Positions 27,150 to 40,718 of a stretch of 64,000 nucleotides of DNA are shown piece by piece. The DNA is from Acidimicrobiaceae bacterium (GTDB taxonomy: Bacteria; Actinomycetota; Acidimicrobiia; Acidimicrobiales; MedAcidi-G1). The stretch lies in NCBI GenBank assembly GCA_002717365.1, contig PBDJ01000041.1, forward strand, positions 1 through 64,000. The letters run 5' to 3'. The notes beneath the pieces are model-generated. The model was given only the letters and a program-made list of their open reading frames with translations, did no database searches and was not told the origin of the DNA. Every line of letters begins with the position of its first letter. The stretch's first letter is position 1. The translations under genes were made by a program, and so were the position numbers.

Positions 27150-28040
27150 TCAGTGACCCAGACCGGTCAGATCCGCTAGCACGGCGGCGTTGCGGTCCTC
27201 GTCGGAGTCGACGCCCGAAGACGTGGCAGCACCCCGGATGATCCGTCGCCGCACTGCGGCTGAGACAGTGTCGATGCTCAACACCACGGCGATAGTCATC
27301 AACAGCACAGCGCCTACTGCCGGGAAGTTGCGAAACACCAGTTGGGACACCAACTCAGAGCCCACTCCGCCGGCGCCGATCATGCCCAACACCGCCGACG
27401 CTCTCACGTTGATCTCGAAGCGGAACAACCACTGAGAGGTCACCACGGGCAGGATCTGGGGCACGACCCCCCAGCGCATTCCCGACACCCACCGACCCCC
27501 GGTAGCTGCTACCGCTTCCAGGGGTCCGGTGTCCACCCCCTCGATAGTCTCAGTAGCCCACTTCCCGAGGGTGCCCACCGAGTGGATCCCGATGGCCAGC
27601 GCACCGGCCCACGGGCCCAGCCCGGTGATCGGGATGAGGATCACGGCCAGGATCAGCTCCGGTACGGCACGGATCACGTTGAATAGCTGACGTATCGGGA
27701 TTCGAACTGCAGCCGGGGCCACATTCTCGGCGGCCAGGAAAGCCAGCGGCAGGGACAGCGTGGCCCCGATAAGGGTGCCGATCCACGCAATGTGCACCGA
27801 TTCCAGCACCTTGCCCACCACTCCTCGTTCAGCGGCTTCGGCAAAGGCTGGCGGGACCATGCGACGGAAAATGTCCCAGGCATCTCCGGGTGCACCGAGC
27901 AGACGGTCGAGCGAGACGCCCAGGCCAGATATCGACCAGCCGACAACCACGACCAGGATCGTCGCCGCCACAGCGCGGCGGCCCGACCTGATGGGGGCGA
28001 TCGGCCGGTCCGGAGAGGCGATGGTCGGGTCGGCGGACAT
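27150..28040 (-). CDS. phnE: Phosphonate-type ABC transporter permease (second PhnE)
   Basis: This 296-residue membrane protein has about six hydrophobic segments and the permease EAA-type loop (TIEGVDTGPLEAVAATGG) that contacts the ATPase. It is the last gene of a phnDCEE operon and follows the other permease by 1 bp. The two permeases likely form a heterodimeric channel. The substrate may be phosphonate or phosphite. No C-P lyase genes are present nearby. Confidence 0.88.
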   Translation of the reverse strand: MSADPTIASPDRPIAPIRSGRRAVAATILVVVVGWSISGLGVSLDRLLGAPGDAWDIFRRMVPPAFAEAAERGVVGKVLESVHIAWIGTLIGATLSLPLAFLAAENVAPAAVRIPIRQLFNVIRAVPELILAVILIPITGLGPWAGALAIGIHSVGTLGKWATETIEGVDTGPLEAVAATGGRWVSGMRWGVVPQILPVVTSQWLFRFEINVRASAVLGMIGAGGVGSELVSQLVFRNFPAVGAVLLMTIAVVLSIDTVSAAVRRRIIRGAATSSGVDSDEDRNAAVLADLTGLGH

Positions 28041-28041
28041 G

Positions 28042-28848
28042 TCAGACCAGCCGCCTGCGGATGGCCACGCTGACTTGCTCGATCACGAAGACGACGACGA
28101 AAACCAGCACCAGCACGCCCAGTACCCGGTCGAATCGGAAGTACTGCCGTTGGGACTCGACCACCCGTCCGATGCCCCCGGCTCCCACCAAGCCCAGCAC
28201 CACCGACGCCCGGATGTTCAACTCGAACACGTACAGCCCGTATGCCACGTACTCGGGAAGGACGGTGGGCAAGACACCGGTTCGGACCACGGGAGCGTGG
28301 CGGCCGCCGGCCGCCCGGGCCGCCTCCAGCGGTCGGGGGTCAGCGCCGTCGATGGTCTCGCTAAACAACTTCACCATCACGCCTAGCGAGAAGACCGAAA
28401 GAGCCCAAGAACCGGCGAACGCCCCGACCCCTACTGCGGTGACTAGCAACTTGGCCCAGAAGAGGTCGGGTACCGCTCGGACCACGTTCATGACCGACCG
28501 GCTGACCACCAGGGTGACCCGGTTGGGAGAGGTCAACGGCGACATGGCGAAGGCCAAGGGGAGGGCCAGGGTGCAACCGATGAGAGTGGAGATCACAGCG
28601 ATCTGGAGTGTTTCGACCAAGGGGTCCAGCACGTTGTGCCGATCCAGGACCCAATCCCAAGGGATGGGCCAGAACTTCCCCCACAGAGGGTTCGACCAAA
28701 CGCTCCAGAACGAGGAGACGTCAAAGCCGACCTTGCGGCCGGCAAACAGCGTGTAGGCGGTCAGGGCGCCGGCCACCATCCACAGTCGGAGGCCCCGGCG
28801 GGGACGAGACGGCCGACTCGTGGTGGCGCCAACCTGGGGTGCGTTCAC
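28042..28848 (-). CDS. phnE: Phosphonate-type ABC transporter permease (first PhnE)
   Basis: A 268-residue permease of the PhnE family with several transmembrane segments and the conserved loop TIDGADPRPLEAARAAGG. Its ATG overlaps the stop of the ATPase gene phnC by 4 bp. It is similar in layout to the permease encoded just downstream, suggesting an old duplication within the operon. Confidence 0.88.
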   Translation of the reverse strand: MNAPQVGATTSRPSRPRRGLRLWMVAGALTAYTLFAGRKVGFDVSSFWSVWSNPLWGKFWPIPWDWVLDRHNVLDPLVETLQIAVISTLIGCTLALPLAFAMSPLTSPNRVTLVVSRSVMNVVRAVPDLFWAKLLVTAVGVGAFAGSWALSVFSLGVMVKLFSETIDGADPRPLEAARAAGGRHAPVVRTGVLPTVLPEYVAYGLYVFELNIRASVVLGLVGAGGIGRVVESQRQYFRFDRVLGVLVLVFVVVFVIEQVSVAIRRRLV

Positions 28849-29627
28849 CCGGCGGGCTCGGCGTCGATAGTTAGGAGGTCGTCGTCGGTGATTGCTCGGC
28901 CGTAGATCTCCTGGAAGGTGTCGTCGGTGACATCGGAGATGTCGCCGTCGAAGACCACCTCGCCGTCCCGCAAGCCCACCAACCGGCGTCCGAATTCCCG
29001 AGCCAGGTCCAGGAAGTGCAAGTTGACTAGCGTGGTGATCCCCATCTCGCGGTTGATACGCAGCAGGTCACCCATGACCTGCCGACTGGTGACCGGGTCC
29101 AGCGCGGCCACCGGCTCATCGGCCAGCATCACCGCCGGCTCCTGGGCCAGGGCCCGAGCGATACCCACCCGCTGCTGCTGCCCGCCAGACAGGTTGGAGG
29201 CCCGTACATACGCCTTTTCAACAATTCCGACCCGTTCAAGAGCCTGGAGGGCCGCTTCGCGCTCGGCGGACGGCCAGAGCCCAAGAGTGGATCGCCAGGC
29301 CGGGACGGCAGACAGGCGCCCCATAAGCACATTGTTCAGTACTGAGGTGCGGTGCACCAGATTGAACGTCTGGAAGATCATCCCGATCTGCGAACGGATG
29401 ACCCTCAACTCGGCGGCCCCGGCGCCGACCACCTCGGTCCCGTCAATGGTGATCGACCCGGAGGTGGCCGGCACAAGGCCATTCAGGGCCCGCAGGAGCG
29501 TGGACTTACCCGCCCCCGAAAGCCCGACGACCACAACAAACTCACCGTCGTCGACCCGGAGGTCTACGTTGCGCAGTGCCTGGACGCCGCCCCGGTAGGT
29601 CACCGAGACGTCGTCGAACCGGATCAC
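28845..29627 (-). CDS. phnC: Phosphonate-type ABC transporter ATP-binding protein
   Basis: The ATPase has Walker A GLSGAGKST, the ABC signature LSGGQQQRVGIARAL, Walker B VMLADEPVAALDP and the typical PhnC length of about 260 residues when started at the GTG at 29627 (IRFDDVSVTYRGG follows directly). The frame stays open to 29798 with an ATG at 29726, but that start would overlap phnD by 53 bp and add a serine-rich non-conserved leader. The start is therefore uncertain. It supplies energy to the two PhnE permeases. Confidence 0.85.
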   Translation of the reverse strand: MIRFDDVSVTYRGGVQALRNVDLRVDDGEFVVVVGLSGAGKSTLLRALNGLVPATSGSITIDGTEVVGAGAAELRVIRSQIGMIFQTFNLVHRTSVLNNVLMGRLSAVPAWRSTLGLWPSAEREAALQALERVGIVEKAYVRASNLSGGQQQRVGIARALAQEPAVMLADEPVAALDPVTSRQVMGDLLRINREMGITTLVNLHFLDLAREFGRRLVGLRDGEVVFDGDISDVTDDTFQEIYGRAITDDDLLTIDAEPAG

Positions 29628-29673
29628 GGCCCGTGCGTCGGTTGTGTCGTGGTCGTCGGCTTCGGTACCCCGA

Positions 29674-30741
29674 TCAGCCGAGAGGCTCGGTGATCCCGAG
29701 GGCGTCAGCTGCCTTTCGGACGACATCGAAGTCAGATTCGACAGCTCGCCGGATCGATGTCCAGCCGTAGGCCTCGTCGAACACCGCCTCGCCTTCATCA
29801 GTCTCTAGGTAGGCATAGATGGCGTCATAGATGGCGTTCTGCAACGAGTCGGGCAGCAGCGAACTGGCGGCCACTACGTCGTTGGGGACCTCGGCGGTGA
29901 GGTTAAACACGATCACCTTGTCACCCACATCGGTCTTCTCCTTGCGGAGGGTCCGGCGGGCATCGTCGTAGGACACACCGACGTCGGCGTCACCGTTATA
30001 GACAGCGATCACGGCGCCGTCGTGTCCGCCGGTAAAGATCGGAGTGATGTCGTTCACCGGATCGATGCCCGCCTCGATGAGTTGCAGGGCCGGGAACAGG
30101 TAACCGGAGGTCGAGGACTCTGAGGTGAAGGCCACCCGCTTGCCCTTCACCTTGGACAGGTCAGCCATGCAGGAGGTCCCAGGCGATACGTCGCCGGCAT
30201 CCACCGACTCGCCGAGGGCCTTGCCGGAATCACCGAAGTAGACGCCTACCTGCAGTGCCACGGCCTCCAGGGCACCGACCTGGACCACTCCCTCATCCAT
30301 GTTCTCCAGGGCCGTACCCGACTCGGGCGCCGTTTCGCACAGCGATGGGTCGTTGGTCATCCACTGGCCGTGATACGTGGCGGACCCGTACCGGATGGCT
30401 TGGATCAGCACCTCCATATTCCCGAACTGCCGCTGGGCCAGCGTGTAGCCGAACGGCCCGAAGGCCCCCAGGTCGGCCTTGCCGGTTCCCATCGCCGTGA
30501 CCAGGCCGGTGTAGTCGGTGGTCACCACGCCGTTCACCTCGATACCGAGGGTCTCTGACAACACGTCCATGAAGGGTTGGATGTTGTCCTGGAGCGCTTC
30601 CTGCTCCGAACTAGGAACGAAACCGAACGTAATGCTGTCCGGCCAGGTCCCGTCGCCGGCGGTTGACCCCCCGTCGTCGGAGCACCCTGAAGCCAGTAGG
30701 CCCAGAGTGAGTAGAAGTGCGAGCAGTGAACGAGCCTTCAT
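29674..30741 (-). CDS. phnD: Phosphonate-type substrate-binding lipoprotein
   Basis: The 355-residue protein begins with a lipoprotein signal peptide (MKARSLLALLLTLGL then lipobox LASGC) and continues as a PhnD-family binding protein: ITFGFVPSSEQEAL, the loop DYTGLVTAMGTGKADLGAFGP and FTSESSTSGYLFPALQL (split here). PhnD binds phosphonate or phosphite outside the membrane for transport by PhnC/PhnE. The ATG at 30741 is chosen because it gives the signal peptide; the frame continues upstream for 27 residues. It is the first gene of the operon. Confidence 0.9.
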   Translation of the reverse strand: MKARSLLALLLTLGLLASGCSDDGGSTAGDGTWPDSITFGFVPSSEQEALQDNIQPFMDVLSETLGIEVNGVVTTDYTGLVTAMGTGKADLGAFGPFGYTLAQRQFGNMEVLIQAIRYGSATYHGQWMTNDPSLCETAPESGTALENMDEGVVQVGALEAVALQVGVYFGDSGKALGESVDAGDVSPGTSCMADLSKVKGKRVAFTSESSTSGYLFPALQLIEAGIDPVNDITPIFTGGHDGAVIAVYNGDADVGVSYDDARRTLRKEKTDVGDKVIVFNLTAEVPNDVVAASSLLPDSLQNAIYDAIYAYLETDEGEAVFDEAYGWTSIRRAVESDFDVVRKAADALGITEPLG

Positions 30742-30867
30742 GGGACCTCCCCACGAACTTGGTGGCGACCCCTGGTGGCCCGCCGACGCCGCGACCGTAG
30801 TCAAGCAAGACGATGCCTGCATCCATTAGGGCCGGGTTGCCGGAGAACCGGGGCGTAGGGTGCCGCG

Positions 30868-31767: not shown

Positions 31768-31891
31768 GCAAAGGGTCCCGGGGTTATTGACGGTGAACAA
31801 AGCGCACCCGAGGGTCCCCGGCGCCCCCGGTAGCATCGACGGGACCGACCGGGGCCTACCCGGTGGGCCTTCCTAACTGTTGGAACCGGCT

Positions 31892-33528: not shown

Positions 33529-34800
33529 ATGGCCGGTCCCATCCCCCTACACCTGCTACCCGACTCGGCGTCGGTCGGACCGGACGGCCGGGCCTCGATT
33601 GGCGGATGTGACCTGGTGGATCTGGCCGATGAGTACGGCACACCGCTCTTCGTGTACGACGAGGACCACCTGCGGAGTCGCTGCCGAGAGGCGGTGGCCG
33701 CCTTCGGGGACGGCGTGGCCTACGCCTCTAAGGCCTTTCTTTGTGGCGCCATGGCCCGCTTGGCCCATGAGGAGGGCATGTGCTTGGACGTGGCCACGGG
33801 TGGCGAGTTGTATGTAGCCCGTCACGCTGGGGTGCCCGGCGACCGTCTGGTCCTCCATGGCAACAACAAGAGCGACCGTGAGTTAGCCATGGCTCTGGAT
33901 GAGGGGGTGGGCCGGATCGTCGTCGACTCGTTCGACGAGTTGGATCGCCTCGACGACCTGTCCACCCGGACTGGGTCCCGGCCTCAGGTCCTGTTGCGGA
34001 TCACCCCGGGAGTGGAGGCCCGGACCCACGAGTTCGTGGCCACCGGCCAGGACGACTCCAAGTTCGGCTTCACGGTGTCGTCTGGCCTTGCCGAGGCGGC
34101 TGTAGAACGTGCTACGGCGTCCGACACCGTGGAGCTAGTCGGACTGCACGCTCACATAGGCAGCCAGGTGTTCGAGGTCGGGGCCTTTTCTCGGGCCGTC
34201 GAGGTCCTGGTGGACTTCGCCGAGTCCTTCGGGTTGCCCGAACTCTCGGTGGGTGGCGGCCTGGGTGTGCCGTACGTGGAGGGGGAGTCGGCTCCGTCGA
34301 TCACCGAGTGGGCTGCCGGTATCCGGGCCGTCTGCGAGGCGGCCGGGGTAACGGCCTCGGTCTCGGCTGAGCCGGGTCGGGCCATCGTGGCGTCGGCTGC
34401 CGTGACCCTCTACCGAGTGGGGACGGTCAAGGACCTACCCGGGATCCGGACCTACGTGGCCGTCGACGGTGGGATGAGCGACAACCCCCGCCCTGTGCTC
34501 TACGGCTCGGGCTATGAGACCTTCTTGCCTCGGTCCACGAATAGCGATCGTCCGCGTGCCGTGCGGGTGGTGGGCAAGCACTGCGAATCGGGCGACCTCC
34601 TGGTCCGCGAGGGCTGGGTCCCCAAGGACATGGTGGTGGGAGACGTGTTAGCTACGCCGGTCACCGGGGCCTATGGACATTCCATGGGTTCCAACTACAA
34701 CCAGGTTCTGCGACCCGCTGTGGTGTTCGTGGCCGACGGCCGGGCCCGTCAGGTAGTGCGACGCGAGACCTTCGAGGACCTGGTTAGCCGGGAGGGCTGA
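33529..34800 (+). CDS. lysA: Diaminopimelate decarboxylase
   Basis: The 423-residue PLP enzyme has the lysine of the internal aldimine in YASKAF (Lys68), the glycine-rich loop GGGLGVPY near residue 240 and the C-terminal catalytic cysteine in GKHCESGDLL. It decarboxylates meso-diaminopimelate to lysine, the last step of lysine synthesis. It sits between argS and hom as in many actinobacteria. The start directly follows the argS stop. Confidence 0.96.
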   Translation: MAGPIPLHLLPDSASVGPDGRASIGGCDLVDLADEYGTPLFVYDEDHLRSRCREAVAAFGDGVAYASKAFLCGAMARLAHEEGMCLDVATGGELYVARHAGVPGDRLVLHGNNKSDRELAMALDEGVGRIVVDSFDELDRLDDLSTRTGSRPQVLLRITPGVEARTHEFVATGQDDSKFGFTVSSGLAEAAVERATASDTVELVGLHAHIGSQVFEVGAFSRAVEVLVDFAESFGLPELSVGGGLGVPYVEGESAPSITEWAAGIRAVCEAAGVTASVSAEPGRAIVASAAVTLYRVGTVKDLPGIRTYVAVDGGMSDNPRPVLYGSGYETFLPRSTNSDRPRAVRVVGKHCESGDLLVREGWVPKDMVVGDVLATPVTGAYGHSMGSNYNQVLRPAVVFVADGRARQVVRRETFEDLVSREG

Positions 34801-34867: not shown

Positions 34868-36166
34868 ATGGAGTCCTCCCTGATCCGTGTTGGAATGCTG
34901 GGCTGCGGCCATGTGGGCGCAGCCCTGGCGGTCCTCGTCGCCGAACGCCGTGACGAGGTAGCCCGACGAACCGGGCTGGACTTGTCAGTGACCCGCATCG
35001 CGGTGCGCAACACGGCCATCGACAGGGACGTTCCAGTCAACGATGACGCCTTCACCACGGATGCCGCCTCGGTAGTAGCCGATCCCGAGGTTGACGTGGT
35101 TGTCGAACTGATGGGAGGCATTGAACCGGCCCGTGAACTGGTAGCGACCGCCTTGTCGTCCGGCAAGCCGGTGGTGACGGCCAACAAAGAACTCCTGGCA
35201 AACCACGGTGCCGAGCTCTACGCCCTAGCCGAGGCCAACGGCGTGGATCTGCTGTTTGAGGCTGCGGTCGCCGGGGCCATCCCGATCATGCGGCCCCTGC
35301 GCGAGTCGTTGGCCGGCGAGCCGATTCGGCGGGGCATGGGCATCGTTAATGGCACGACCAATTTCATCCTGACTCGCATGACCGACGAGGGAGCCAGCTA
35401 CGCCGACGCTCTGGCAGAGGCCCAGAGCCTGGGCTACGCCGAAAGTGACCCAACCGCCGACGTAGAGGGCTTCGATGCCGGAGCCAAGGCGGCCATCATC
35501 GCCACACTGGCCTTCGGTGCCCGGGTGGTGGCTGGCGACGTCTACCACGAAGGTATCTCAGGGATCACGGTGGACGACATCGAGTTCGCCGCCGACCTGA
35601 AGCACTGCATCAAGTTGCTGGCTGTGGCCGAGCAGACGGTCGACGAGGACGGTCGGTCCCAGGTCGGGGTGCGGGTGCACCCCACGCTGGTCCCGCTGGA
35701 CCACCCCTTGGCCTCGGTCAACGGAAGCTTCAACGCGGTATTCGTGGAAGGCGAGGCGTCCGGTGACCTCATGCTCTACGGGCGGGGAGCCGGTGGACGA
35801 CCGAGCGCTTCGGCCGTGCTGGGTGACCTCATCGACGCTGCGGGGAACCTCCACGGAGGCCACGGCGCGGTCATCGGGGATTTGGAGCCAGTCCGGATCG
35901 CTCCCATCGACGACGTGACGTCCGCCTTCTACCTGAACCTCGAGGTGGACGACCGCCCGGGAGTGCTGGCCCAGGTGGCTGCTGTGTTCGGCGAGCACGG
36001 CGTGTCCATCCGTTCAATGGAACAGGAGGGCCTAGGTGGTGAGGCCCGCCTGGTGTTCATCACCCACGGAGCCCAGGAGCGTGACCTGCGCTCCACCCTT
36101 GAGGACCTCCGTTCCCTGGACGCTGTGCGGGCCGTCGGCAGCGTGCTGCGGGTCATTGGCGACTGA
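34868..36166 (+). CDS. hom: Homoserine dehydrogenase
   Basis: The 432-residue protein has an NAD(P)-binding domain (GMLGCGHVGAAL at the N-terminus), the catalytic domain with NKELLANHG and GIVNGTTNFILT, and a C-terminal ACT domain (about residues 350-430) typical of feedback-regulated forms. It reduces aspartate semialdehyde to homoserine, the branch to threonine and methionine. It is followed after 17 bp by thrC. Confidence 0.96.
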   Translation: MESSLIRVGMLGCGHVGAALAVLVAERRDEVARRTGLDLSVTRIAVRNTAIDRDVPVNDDAFTTDAASVVADPEVDVVVELMGGIEPARELVATALSSGKPVVTANKELLANHGAELYALAEANGVDLLFEAAVAGAIPIMRPLRESLAGEPIRRGMGIVNGTTNFILTRMTDEGASYADALAEAQSLGYAESDPTADVEGFDAGAKAAIIATLAFGARVVAGDVYHEGISGITVDDIEFAADLKHCIKLLAVAEQTVDEDGRSQVGVRVHPTLVPLDHPLASVNGSFNAVFVEGEASGDLMLYGRGAGGRPSASAVLGDLIDAAGNLHGGHGAVIGDLEPVRIAPIDDVTSAFYLNLEVDDRPGVLAQVAAVFGEHGVSIRSMEQEGLGGEARLVFITHGAQERDLRSTLEDLRSLDAVRAVGSVLRVIGD

Positions 36167-36183
36167 CCGACGCCGCGATCACC

Positions 36184-37566
36184 ATGCGCTACGTCAGCAC
36201 CCGTGGGGCGGCTCCGGTCCTGGAGTTCGGGGATGCCCTGCTCGCCGGCTTGGCTTCCGACGGGGGGCTTTACGTGCCGGAGTCCTGGTCGGCCCTGCCC
36301 GAAGGTGGGCGGGGCAATTACGTGGAGACGGCGATCGAAATCATGGCCCTGTTCGTGGGCAACGCCATCAGTCGGGACGACCTCGCCGCCATGGTGTCTG
36401 ACGCCTACGCCACGTTTGACACCCCAGAGGTAACGCCGCTTGTCGAGTTGCACGATGGTATTCACCTACTGGAGCTCTTTCACGGCCCGACGCTGGCCTT
36501 CAAGGACATAGCCCTCCAGATGGTCGGACGGCTCTTCGACTACGAGCTAGATCGGCGGGGCCAGCGGGTGACCGTCGTGGGAGCAACATCGGGAGACACG
36601 GGATCGGCGGCTATCGAAGCCTGTCGGGACCGCGAGAACGTTGACGTCATCATCTTGCACCCGGCCGACCGGGTGTCTGACGTGCAGCGCCGGCAGATGA
36701 CCACCGTGGAGGCCGACAACGTGCACAACGTGGCCGTGGAGGGCACCTTTGACGACTGCCAGGACCTGGTTAAGGCCATGTTCGCCGACGTGGCCTTCCG
36801 GGACCAGGTGCGACTGTCGGCCGTGAACTCCATCAACTGGGCCCGGGTGATGGCTCAAATCGTCTACTACGTGGTGGCCGCCGAGCGGCTGGGGGGCCGC
36901 CGGTCTCCGGTGGCATTCGCCGTACCCACTGGGAATTTCGGGAACGTCTTCGCCGGACACGTGGCCCGGCGCGTCGGCCTGAACGTCCCTCAACTAGTGG
37001 TTGGAACCAACACCAACGACGTCCTGACGCAGTTCTTCACCGAGGGCACCATGGCCATCGCTGAGGTGGTACCGACCACCTCGCCCAGCATGGATATCCA
37101 GATCTCGTCCAACCTTGAGCGGCTGCTGTACGAGATCTTGGACCGCGACGGTGCTGAGGTGGCCGCTCGTCTGGACGCTTTCCGGTCCACCGGCCGCTTC
37201 CAGCTGAACCCAGAACACCATGCTGCCCTGTCCGATAATTGGTCAGCGGCCCGTTTCGGCGACGACATAGTCAAGGACTGCATCGCCGCAGAGGCGGACC
37301 GGTCGGGAATCGTGCTCGATCCTCACACCGCAGTCGGCGTGCTGGCCGGTCGGGCCGCCCGTCGCGACCCTTCGATCCCTCTAGTGGCCCTAGCTACGGC
37401 CCACCCGGCCAAGTTCCCGGATGCCGTAGAGGCGGCCACCGGGGTCCGGCCCGAGCTGCCGGACCGTCTAGCCGGCCTCCACGACCGTCCGGAACGCCTA
37501 ACCCGGATGCCCAACGACCTGGCCGTCGTGCAGGAGTTCGTCGAGGCGCACCGGCGTGTCCGATGA
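36184..37566 (+). CDS. thrC: Threonine synthase
   Basis: The 460-residue PLP enzyme of the long (E. coli/yeast-like) type has the PLP lysine in LAFKDIALQ (Lys107) and the phosphate-binding loop GATSGDTGSAA. It converts O-phosphohomoserine to threonine, so it needs a homoserine kinase. No classical thrB is present next to it; the following gene is an ApgM-type protein instead. Confidence 0.96.
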   Translation: MRYVSTRGAAPVLEFGDALLAGLASDGGLYVPESWSALPEGGRGNYVETAIEIMALFVGNAISRDDLAAMVSDAYATFDTPEVTPLVELHDGIHLLELFHGPTLAFKDIALQMVGRLFDYELDRRGQRVTVVGATSGDTGSAAIEACRDRENVDVIILHPADRVSDVQRRQMTTVEADNVHNVAVEGTFDDCQDLVKAMFADVAFRDQVRLSAVNSINWARVMAQIVYYVVAAERLGGRRSPVAFAVPTGNFGNVFAGHVARRVGLNVPQLVVGTNTNDVLTQFFTEGTMAIAEVVPTTSPSMDIQISSNLERLLYEILDRDGAEVAARLDAFRSTGRFQLNPEHHAALSDNWSAARFGDDIVKDCIAAEADRSGIVLDPHTAVGVLAGRAARRDPSIPLVALATAHPAKFPDAVEAATGVRPELPDRLAGLHDRPERLTRMPNDLAVVQEFVEAHRRVR

Positions 37567-37618: not shown

Positions 37619-38767
37619 GTGAAGCATGTGATCTGCATCCCCGACGGCTGTGCTGACCTTCCGGTTCCCGAGCTGGACGGCTATACCCCGCTGGAGGTTG
37701 CTCACACCCCCGTCCTAGACGCCCTAGCCGCTCGGGCCACAGTGGGTCGGGCGGCCGTAATCCCCGAGGGAATGTCTCCGGGAAGCGATGTGGGCAATAT
37801 GTCGATTCTGGGTTTCGACCCAACCGAGTACCACACCGGCCGAGCCCCCATTGAAGTAGCGGCGATGGGCCACACCCTGCGTCCCGACCAGACGGCCTTC
37901 CGCTGCAACCTGGTCGTCGTTCGCGACGGCGTGATGGTCGACTACGCAGGGGCTAACCCAACCAACGAGGAGGGCGCTGCCGTGATAGCCGGCCTCCAGG
38001 AGGCCCTAGCCGGCGCCCACGAGGGCCTGGAGTTCCTAGCCGGAGTCGGCTTTCGCAACGCCCTGATTGCTCCCGAGGCGTGGCTGGATGCCGACTGCAC
38101 CCCGCCCCATGACCTGTCCGGGGCCCCAATCGTGAACCCGTCGGGTCCGGCCGGCGGGGCATTGACCGACCTTATGGAGAGTTCGAAGGAGGTCTTGGCT
38201 GGCTTCGATCTGGAGGCCAACCAGATCTGGCTGTGGGGCCAAGGATTCCAACCGCGGATCCCATCGTTTCGAGACACCCACGGCGTAGAGGCCGGCCTGG
38301 TCACGGCCGTGGACCTCGTCCGAGGTATCGGAGTGTTGTCGGGCATGAAGATCTGTGACATCCCGGGGGCTACCGGGTGGTACGACACGGACTACGAGGG
38401 CAAGCGAGACGTCGCCCTGGCCGAGTTAAAGGCCGGCCTAGACCTGTTCGTTATTCACGTAGAGGCCACTGATGAGGCCGGCCACGCCGGAGACGTGGCT
38501 GAGAAGGTAGAGGCTCTAGAGAACTGGGACCGCCGGATTCTGGCCGACCTGTTGACCGGTCTGGATGACCTGGGGCCGTGGCGACTCCTGATGCTGCCCG
38601 ACCACGCCACGCCGTTGACCACTCGGACTCACACTCCCGACCCTGTGCCCTACCTGTTGGCGGATTCGGAGGTGGATGGCCCCGGTGGAACCTTCACTGA
38701 GGCCGGTGTGGCCGACCGGGAACCAATTCCAGGACACCACTTGGTTTCCCGTCTCCTAGCCCCCTGA
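37619..38767 (+). CDS. ApgM-type protein; candidate non-classical homoserine kinase
   Basis: This 382-residue protein belongs to the archaeal-type, cofactor-independent phosphoglycerate mutase superfamily, related to alkaline phosphatase. Metal-binding residues are visible in IPDGCAD, PEGMSPGSDVGNMSILGFDP (split), HVEATDEAGHAGD and LPDHATPL. The start is the GTG at 37619. Synteny is the telling point: it stands between thrC and rho, where actinobacteria usually have thrB. A subfamily of ApgM proteins has been proposed as alternative homoserine kinases, so this is the likely role. The glycolytic mutase role remains possible. Confidence 0.75.
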   Translation: MKHVICIPDGCADLPVPELDGYTPLEVAHTPVLDALAARATVGRAAVIPEGMSPGSDVGNMSILGFDPTEYHTGRAPIEVAAMGHTLRPDQTAFRCNLVVVRDGVMVDYAGANPTNEEGAAVIAGLQEALAGAHEGLEFLAGVGFRNALIAPEAWLDADCTPPHDLSGAPIVNPSGPAGGALTDLMESSKEVLAGFDLEANQIWLWGQGFQPRIPSFRDTHGVEAGLVTAVDLVRGIGVLSGMKICDIPGATGWYDTDYEGKRDVALAELKAGLDLFVIHVEATDEAGHAGDVAEKVEALENWDRRILADLLTGLDDLGPWRLLMLPDHATPLTTRTHTPDPVPYLLADSEVDGPGGTFTEAGVADREPIPGHHLVSRLLAP

Positions 38768-38828: not shown

Positions 38829-39050
38829 GGAGGTGTCGTCAGGTGGGCGACGGTTCCCGCGAGATTTCCTTCGTGCCACCACGTGTCCGTGGCGGGATCA
38901 CACGATCGGCCTCGGGACCACCGCTCGACGACACGCCCTCCGTTCCGCTAAGCGGGTCCACGGATGGCAGTCCCCCCTCCCGTACCGTCCCGGTCGGGAG
39001 CAAATCAGACGGGCCATTGGGTCCGAAGAATATATAGAGGTGTTGTGAGC
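38829..39050 (+). promoter_or_regulatory. rho: Long rho leader region, possible attenuator
   Basis: About 215 transcribed bases precede rho. It holds short inverted repeats, such as CCACGTGTCCGTGG near 38879, and two overlapping open frames without clear ribosome sites, one ending at 39048 only 2 bp before the rho ATG. Rho genes in several bacteria autoregulate by attenuation in a leader, so a similar control is plausible. No known riboswitch fold is recognised. Confidence 0.35.
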
Positions 39051-40718
39051 ATGGACTCCACCCAGTTGGAACGCGGAGCGTTGGAGAGTAAAGACCGCGA
39101 TGAACTGACCACGATCGCCAACGCGCTTGGCGGCAAGCCTGGTTCGCGAGCCCGCAAGGCTGAGATCGTGGACCTGATTCTGGATTTGACCGGTACTGGG
39201 TCGAATGGTTCGTCGCCGGACTCGGCGGGGTCTGTCGAAGAGCCCCCGGCCGAGTGGGAGGTCGCGGTGAACGCCGAGGAAGCGACTGTCGAGAAGGTGA
39301 CCGACGAGAAGTCTGAGGACGTCGGTGACGATGCCGAATCATCGGACGGCGGGAAGGCCGATACCACGACCGACCGAGGTGACGGTGAAGGCGACTCCGT
39401 CCGGGCCGATAGCCGGAACTCCGGACAGGACAGCGGACGACAGAACCAGAGTCGGGGACAGCATCAAAACCGCGGCCAGCAGAGCGACCAGAGCGAGCCG
39501 GGAAACCGCCGTCGCCGTCGGCGTGGACGCGAGAGGGACCAGGGGCCTGAAGAGCCGTGGGACGGCGAGCCGGTGGCGGTCTCTGGCCACCTAGACCTAC
39601 GGGATGAGGGATACGGCTTCCTCCGTACCTCCGGCTTCAAGCCATCCAAGAGCGACGCCTATGTCTCGGTCAAGCAGGTTCGCCAGTTCGGTCTCCGCAA
39701 GGGCGATCAGATTGTTGGAGCGTCGCGTCCGGCTAATCGCAGCGAGAAGAACCCCGCCCTGCTTCGGGTGGATTCTGTGAACGGTGCGGATCCCGAGAAG
39801 GCTAAGGGTCGTCCGAAGTTCGAAGACCTCACGCCGCTATTCCCGGACGAGAAACTCAAGATGGAGGTCGGTGACGATCCCACCAACATGACGGCCCGGA
39901 TAATCGACCTGCTCTGTCCGGTGGGCAAAGGCCAGCGCGGGATGATCGTCTCACCCCCCAAGGCAGGCAAGACCACCATCGTCAAGTCCATCGTCCGGTC
40001 GATCGAGACCAACCATCCTGAGGTCAAGCTCATCGTCCTGCTGGTCGACGAGCGACCCGAGGAGGTCACTGACATGCGTCGCTGGATGCTGCGCGGAGAG
40101 GTGGTGGGATCCACCTTCGACCGTCCTAGCGATGAGCACACCCACCTGGCCGAGGTCACCATCGAGCGGGCTAAACGGATGGTGGAGTACGGCGAGGACG
40201 TGGTGATTGTGCTCGACGGCATCACCCGCCTCTCCCGGGCCTACAACCTGGCAGCCGGCCCAGGCACCGGACGCATCATGTCCGGTGGGTTGGACACCGG
40301 CGCCCTCTACCCACCCAAGAGGTTCTTCGGTGCAGCCCGCAACGTAGAGGAGGGTGGTTCGCTGACCATCCTGGCCACAGCCTTGGTCGACACCGGTTCC
40401 AAGATGGACGAGGTGATCTTCGAGGAGTTCAAAGGCACCGGCAACATGGAGCTTCGCCTGGACCGGCGTATTTCCGAGAGGCGGATCTATCCGGCTATCG
40501 ACGTGAACGCTTCATCCACCCGTCACGAGGAACTTCTGTTCGAGCGTAAGCAGCTCAACCAGGTGTGGAAGTTGCGCCGGGTGCTCAACGGCTTGGCCAA
40601 CGACGGCGACGCCGGTGCAGCAGCCGGCCTCGAGCTTCTCATTGACCGACTCAAGACTTTCAACGACAACGACGAGTTCTTGGTGGAGATCGCCAAGGGA
40701 CCGAGCATGGGTGCCTGA
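39051..40718 (+). CDS. rho: Transcription termination factor Rho
   Basis: The 555-residue protein has a Rho N-terminal helical domain (about 1-50), a disordered, acidic then Arg/Gln/Asn-rich insert (about 50-172), the cold-shock RNA-binding domain ([17 protein letters not shown]), and the RecA-like ATPase core with Walker A PPKAGKTT, Walker [10 protein letters not shown] and the Q-loop [15 protein letters not shown]. The long insert is known in high-GC actinobacterial Rho. ATG at 39051 or GTG at 39045 could be the start; an AGAGG site lies at 39036. Rho is a hexameric helicase that terminates transcription. Confidence 0.97.

Follow-up and report, generated by a model that had tools for sequence, protein, structure and literature searches.

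An ApgM-type protein encoded between thrC and rho is a candidate replacement for homoserine kinase in Acidimicrobiia

Homoserine kinase catalyses the second-to-last step of threonine synthesis, and its gene, thrB, takes the bracketed place in the common actinobacterial order argS-lysA-hom-thrC-[thrB]-rho-rpmE-prfA. Previous work found this step unaccounted for in 29 of 148 organisms, which places it among the most frequent unexplained gaps when amino-acid pathways are predicted (PMC7311316). The same paper records that TIGRFAM curators proposed TIGR02535 as a homoserine kinase replacement, suggesting a donor such as phosphoenolpyruvate, and that BT2402 of Bacteroides thetaiotaomicron is required in minimal medium without a threonine supplement; according to a personal communication cited there, BT2402 did not rescue an Escherichia coli thrB mutant. 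A gut-genome study gave the name ThrB2 on the strength of co-occurrence and co-localisation (PMC9026213), and a later tool paper refers to BT2402 as ‘the alternative homoserine kinase’ with conserved zinc sites (PMC9765024). Two other proteins bear on the question: Dehre_1608, a proposed threonine kinase that resembles TIGR02535 and is encoded in a cobalamin operon (PMC4285132), and DvMF_0971 of Desulfovibrio vulgaris, a shikimate-kinase-like homoserine kinase that complements E. coli thrB (PMC5764234). An earlier note on the DNA studied here had mentioned that a subfamily of ApgM was proposed as a non-homologous homoserine kinase, and the proposal is indeed in print, as TIGR02535 and as ThrB2. 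In the literature that we covered, which left most subscription journals outside its scope and included papers accessible only in part, we found no report of homoserine-phosphorylating activity for any ApgM-type member and no report of ApgM replacing thrB in Acidimicrobiia. The replacement idea itself is thus already published; new here are its extension to Acidimicrobiia, the partition between two ApgM paralogues and family-specific changes at His113 and Tyr145.

We analysed a 64,000-nt stretch of DNA (the window; contig PBDJ01000041.1, positions 1–64,000) from a MAG of the family MedAcidi-G1. An ApgM-type protein had been placed in the interval between thrC and rho, and an open reading frame (ORF) lies exactly there on the plus strand, 52 bases downstream of thrC and about 200 bases upstream of the rho ORF. 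The gene run argS-lysA-hom-thrC-[ApgM gene]-rho comprises the following features:

starts at 31880, upstream of lysA: argS
33529..34800, plus strand: lysA, diaminopimelate decarboxylase, in a common gene run with the ApgM-type gene (TIGR01048, 437.7 bits)
34868..36166, plus strand: hom, homoserine dehydrogenase with an ACT domain (PRK06349, 528.5 bits; PF00742, PF03447, PF01842)
36184..37566, plus strand: thrC, threonine synthase of the long type with Thr_synth_N (TIGR00260, 259.2 bits, cut-off 167.1; PF14821)
37619..38767, plus strand: ApgM-type gene, GTG start, 382 amino acids; candidate homoserine phosphotransferase (ThrB2/TIGR02535-like), a putative binuclear metalloenzyme
38964..40718, plus strand: rho, an ORF named in the first reading and used as a BLAST query for synteny; downstream boundary of the thrC–rho slot

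Farther upstream, at 27150–30822 on the minus strand, the window holds what by eye is a phosphonate/phosphate ABC transporter (two permeases, an ATPase and a binding protein).

In an hmmscan search the window protein matched TIGR00306 (apgM) at 378.9 bits, over the cut-off of 320, and scored under the cut-offs of TIGR02535 (‘proposed homoserine kinase’; 390.1 bits, cut-off 446.3) and NF003242 (cofactor-independent phosphoglycerate mutase; 401.8 bits, cut-off 426). Among seven other sequences of its clade that were scanned, three were over and four under the TIGR02535 cut-off, and five, including L126 of the window's family, were over that of NF003242. The Pfam domains of the protein are PF10143 and PF01676; Pfam showed no GHMP kinase domain, and the protein does not belong to the GHMP homoserine kinases of TIGR00191. 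An AlphaFold2 model built from an alignment of 40 rows has a mean pLDDT of 96.3. Among solved folds it comes closest to archaeal proteins of the phosphoglycerate mutase type, the best being 2zkt_B (Z 43.7, root-mean-square deviation (r.m.s.d.) 2.6 Å over 355 residues), with 3kd8_A at Z 31.3 and r.m.s.d. 5.6 over 344 residues. Values of dN/dS, 0.060 with L148, the nearest relative fetched (96% identical), and 0.074–0.129 in five further pairs, show that the protein evolves under purifying selection; a seventh pair yielded no dS.

The earlier note saw no GHMP-type homoserine kinase in the window, and the same holds for the whole MAG, in which neither thrB (TIGR00191) nor the GHMP domain PF00288, positive in 14 of 14 controls, found a match. 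Because no GHMP gene of any kind was found there, the absence of thrB from this MAG, which is 77.8% complete, proves little by itself. Incompleteness as the cause was ruled out by a family-wide search: a real thrB occurs in none of the 48 genomes of the family, two of which gave weak matches (29.6 bits or lower), and the classical thrB elsewhere that the earlier note had named as speaking against its idea did not come to light. TIGR00306 matched in 43 of the 48 (40 over the cut-off, three partial). Of the 23 family genomes with completeness of 90% or more and contamination of 5% or less, 21 have ApgM and one has a weak thrB match. All 31 family ApgM sequences that were read are of the window type.

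Next to this family we set a class sample of 149 Acidimicrobiia genomes, all with completeness of 85% or more apart from that of the window. We called thrB at E ≤ 1e-20, a threshold placed by inspection between 3.0e-26 and 1.7e-14, where the ranked matches leave a gap. On this basis, thrB is present in 91 genomes and window-type ApgM in 43; both occur in 9, thrB only in 82, ApgM only in 34 and neither in 24 (Fisher p 3.7e-10, uncorrected for kinship). The replacement pattern is also seen in the taxonomic order of the window (both 0, thrB only 30, ApgM only 9, neither 5; n = 44) and in the majority states of 41 families (both 3, thrB only 18, ApgM only 16, neither 4; p 3.2e-5), the latter table being our nearest substitute for a phylogeny-corrected count of switches. 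A thrC match (TIGR00260) was found in 147 of the 149 genomes, over the cut-off in 146. The complete genome CP011489 (IMCC26256) encodes an ApgM protein identical to that of G003, in which the thrB match is weak (2.1e-4). The main exception is formed by the nine genomes with both genes (seven of family f23, one of f36 and one of f41), which may reflect redundancy or transition.

As 24 of the 149 genomes have neither gene, the absence of thrB alone does not call for ApgM. Sixteen of these belong to one family, f17, whose 16 genomes of about 1 Mb (for example, G011) all lack thrB and window-type ApgM, with a thrC match in 14; these organisms may be threonine auxotrophs at the homoserine kinase step or may use a third homoserine kinase. 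In the window's order, five genomes that are 95–98% complete (G031, G087, G111 and G134 of f2, and G147 of f13) carry hom-thrC (L098–L101, L105) but no ApgM and, apart from a weak match in G134, no thrB. Two of the five, G087 and G134, have an SDR-like gene after thrC. In L074 such a gene lies between thrC and ApgM; as a possible rival kinase it was set aside, since it is oxidoreductase-like by eye and in the window's family ApgM directly follows thrC.

In that family, thrC lies directly upstream of ApgM in 29 of 30 loci, the window's own counted, and the locus of the lone exception, L155, begins at a contig edge; rho is seen downstream in 20 of the 30, within flanks of only 1.5 kb. Of 40 class ApgM loci, representing 40 of the 43 ApgM genomes (the window, G094 and G135 left out) and in several cases cut by contig ends, 27 have thrC upstream, 33 have rho downstream and 24 have both. 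At greater distance, mostly in other phyla, hom or thrC lies within about 4 kb of ApgM in 44 of 59 loci, which come from the best 80 of 581 matches and were picked by patterns from the ApgM alignment, not by their neighbours. Loci titled Bifidobacterium breve (L168) and Acidobacteria (L162) carry hom-thrC-apgM-rho genes that group with Acidimicrobiia in the tree and are probably mislabelled MAGs. A Peptococcaceae locus (L228), in which ApgM is accompanied by both hom and a thrB-like gene, speaks against simple replacement.

The thrC–rho slot had also been described as the position of thrB, a claim that stands for one relative of the same order but for few of the thrB loci examined in the class. 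In G075 of the window's order (L095), we find hom-thrC-thrB-rho-rpmE, with a thrB of 135.3 bits to TIGR00191, under the cut-off of 168.25. Class-wide, with thrB marked in loci by BLAST with a G002 thrB query, thrC adjoins thrB in 2 of 37 thrB loci (L009 and L095), which hold 36 distinct genes (G010 twice) against 91 thrB genomes and include 15 loci with flanks of only 1.5 kb. rho directly follows thrC in 7 of 10 thrC loci of the window's order taken from ApgM-less genomes. In relatives that have thrB, the slot is therefore usually vacant and seldom occupied by that gene.

The window protein has the two-metal site and Ser nucleophile of alkaline phosphatase superfamily phosphomutases. Asp9, Ser56, Asp285, His289, Asp328, His329 and His338, which we take to be the metal ligands and the nucleophile, are conserved throughout its clade, partial or frameshifted rows aside. 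The DRRAGR loop of mutase-type ApgM and of 3kd8 (in which HMMER and MAFFT place the gaps differently) is absent, and the window protein has DYAGAN at 108–113. Compared with a second, mutase-replacing ApgM clade, the window-type clade shows DRRAGR changed to D-F/Y-A/S-A/G-G-H and Lys282 to Glu, together with a WLWGQG block; the nine sequences of that second clade and one structure suggest that the loop defines mutases. In the second clade itself (L058–L065, L085), the metal-ligand position His289 is Glu in all nine members.

The window's family departs from its relatives at two further positions. At residue 113, all 31 family sequences have Asn, Ser or Thr, whereas 40 of 40 sequences from other families of the class have His; at residue 145, Phe is found in 29 of the 31 and Tyr in 41 of 41 from those other families. 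In the distant set, drawn from the best 80 of 581 matches, residue 113 is His in 53 of 58 sequences and residue 145 is Tyr in 59 of 59. These changes do not account for the low model scores, as L126 carries them and passes NF003242, and L028 lacks them and fails both models. In a tree of 154 proteins (SH-aLRT support, quick search, midpoint root; BT2402 left out), the window protein groups with hom/thrC-linked ApgM, apart from mutase-type ApgM, whose clade is set off by a long branch with support of 100. The window-type ApgM of the class forms one group (support 99), as does the window's family with its named near-identical records (support 100). Near relatives among the named matches listed are from a Candidatus Microthrix sp. 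MAG (83%) and MedAcidi-G2B (66%).

One alternative is that the window protein is an ordinary archaeal-type glycolytic phosphoglycerate mutase that stands beside thrC by chance, as the phosphoglycerate mutase names of TIGR00306 and NF003242 and the closeness of its fold to 2zkt and 3kd8 would suggest. The MAG, however, encodes gpmA (322 bits; G000:C6), with no match for gpmI; the lack of another phosphoglycerate mutase, which the earlier note had listed as telling against its proposal, is thus not what we find. Across the class, in which curated cut-offs call gpmA in 126 and gpmI in 5 of the 149 genomes, window-type ApgM shows no association with gpmA (both 35, gpmA only 91, ApgM only 8, neither 15; p 0.62). 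The second ApgM clade, by contrast, occurs in 9 of the 149 genomes, all without gpmA and gpmI over the cut-off: it is present in none of the 131 genomes with either gene and, among the remaining genomes, in nine and absent from nine (p 6e-10), these nine further genomes lacking all three mutase types when the same cut-offs are applied. NF003160 is the best match of the two second-clade members scanned. Eight of the nine genomes with the second clade also have window-type ApgM, and the two clades therefore appear to serve different steps within one cell. With the missing DRRAGR motif and the support of 100 for the branch between the two clades, these findings make a chance neighbour with a glycolytic role very improbable, and we conclude that the window protein is not the glycolytic mutase.

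Two other explanations keep the protein out of glycolysis. It might be auxiliary or regulatory in threonine synthesis, the true kinase being another protein, an unlikely reading with which the failed complementation by BT2402 (PMC7311316) and the genomes with both genes (9 of 149) or neither (24 of 149) are in keeping. Against it, the metal site and nucleophile are fully kept, and the known families searched offer no substitute: TIGR00938 is over its cut-off in 0 of 149 class genomes (46 below it, best 106 bits) and without a match in the window's genome, and none of the 48 family genomes has a second full-length shikimate-kinase-like match (matches in 47, the second ones short and at most 26.8 bits). 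Alternatively, the protein could phosphorylate L-threonine for the cobalamin side chain, by analogy with the threonine kinase role proposed for the TIGR02535-like Dehre_1608 of a cobalamin operon (PMC4285132). This we consider extremely improbable: the window gene sits in hom-thrC-rho rather than in a cobalamin cluster, and the reading would leave ThrC without a known substrate source. TIGR01140 (CobD) is over its cut-off in 0 of 48 family genomes, a weak argument, since no more than 3 of 14 controls reached that cut-off and matches below it went up to 217 bits.

We favour a role for the window protein in threonine synthesis itself: on genomic grounds it probably makes O-phospho-L-homoserine for the adjoining ThrC, replacing the missing GHMP homoserine kinase. 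The earlier note's candidate alternative homoserine kinase thus gains support from comparative genomics (thrB in 0 and ApgM in 43 of 48 family genomes, gpmA present). The reaction that we infer, with its donor, phosphoserine and residue roles, would begin with two metal ions, coordinated by Asp9, Asp285, His289, Asp328, His329 and His338, activating Ser56. Ser56 would accept phosphate from the donor and hand it on to the homoserine hydroxyl, as in cofactor-independent phosphomutases, and loop 108–113 and segment 145–147, which carry arginines and His-Arg in the mutase-type clade, would be altered for a different substrate. We know of no ATP site in the phosphomutase fold of the alkaline phosphatase superfamily, and a glycolytic phospho-acid such as phosphoenolpyruvate would fit this fold better as donor. 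For this reason, and because the TIGRFAM curators suggested a phosphoenolpyruvate-type donor (PMC7311316), ATP is doubtful, and the donor is probably not ATP. More tentatively, the protein could be a homoserine phosphotransferase that uses a glycolytic phospho-acid (phosphoenolpyruvate or phosphoglycerate) and arose by a change of acceptor in a phosphoglycerate-mutase-like enzyme, its pocket having changed again in the window's family (His113 to Asn/Ser/Thr, Tyr145 to Phe), perhaps for another donor.

If our proposal is true, the automatic name ‘phosphoglycerate mutase’ would be corrected for many genomes. Acidimicrobiia offer a clean paired set, with thrB-only, ApgM-only and both-gene genomes and a second ApgM clade that replaces gpmA/gpmI, and such a set suits assays and residue swaps directed at acceptor and donor.

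Among known systems, ThrB2/TIGR02535 (BT2402) comes closest to the window protein: it is the best-matching model group, linked to hom-thrC and complementary to thrB, with the metal ligands kept. The window protein differs, in a comparison made through the model and not with BT2402 itself, in its score (390.1 against a cut-off of 446.3 bits), in the family changes at His113 and Tyr145 and in its phylum. Archaeal-type ApgM (3kd8/3idd of Thermoplasma and PH0037 of Pyrococcus, 2zkt) shares the fold and metal site, with 25–31% identity when structurally aligned; in contrast, the window protein has DYAGAN in place of the DRRAGR of 3kd8, and its genome has gpmA. PhpG (NF038358), a phosphonoformyl transferase to 3-phosphoglycerate, is an ApgM relative with, by its family name, transferase rather than mutase chemistry, to which the window protein scores 158.4 bits (cut-off 545). 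The GHMP homoserine kinase ThrB (TIGR00191) would share the inferred product and, in G075, shares the gene position, whereas the sequences are unrelated and the window protein has no GHMP domain. Finally, DvMF_0971, described as a non-orthologous replacement of ThrB (PMC5764234), parallels the window protein in that respect but is a relative of shikimate kinase rather than of ApgM.
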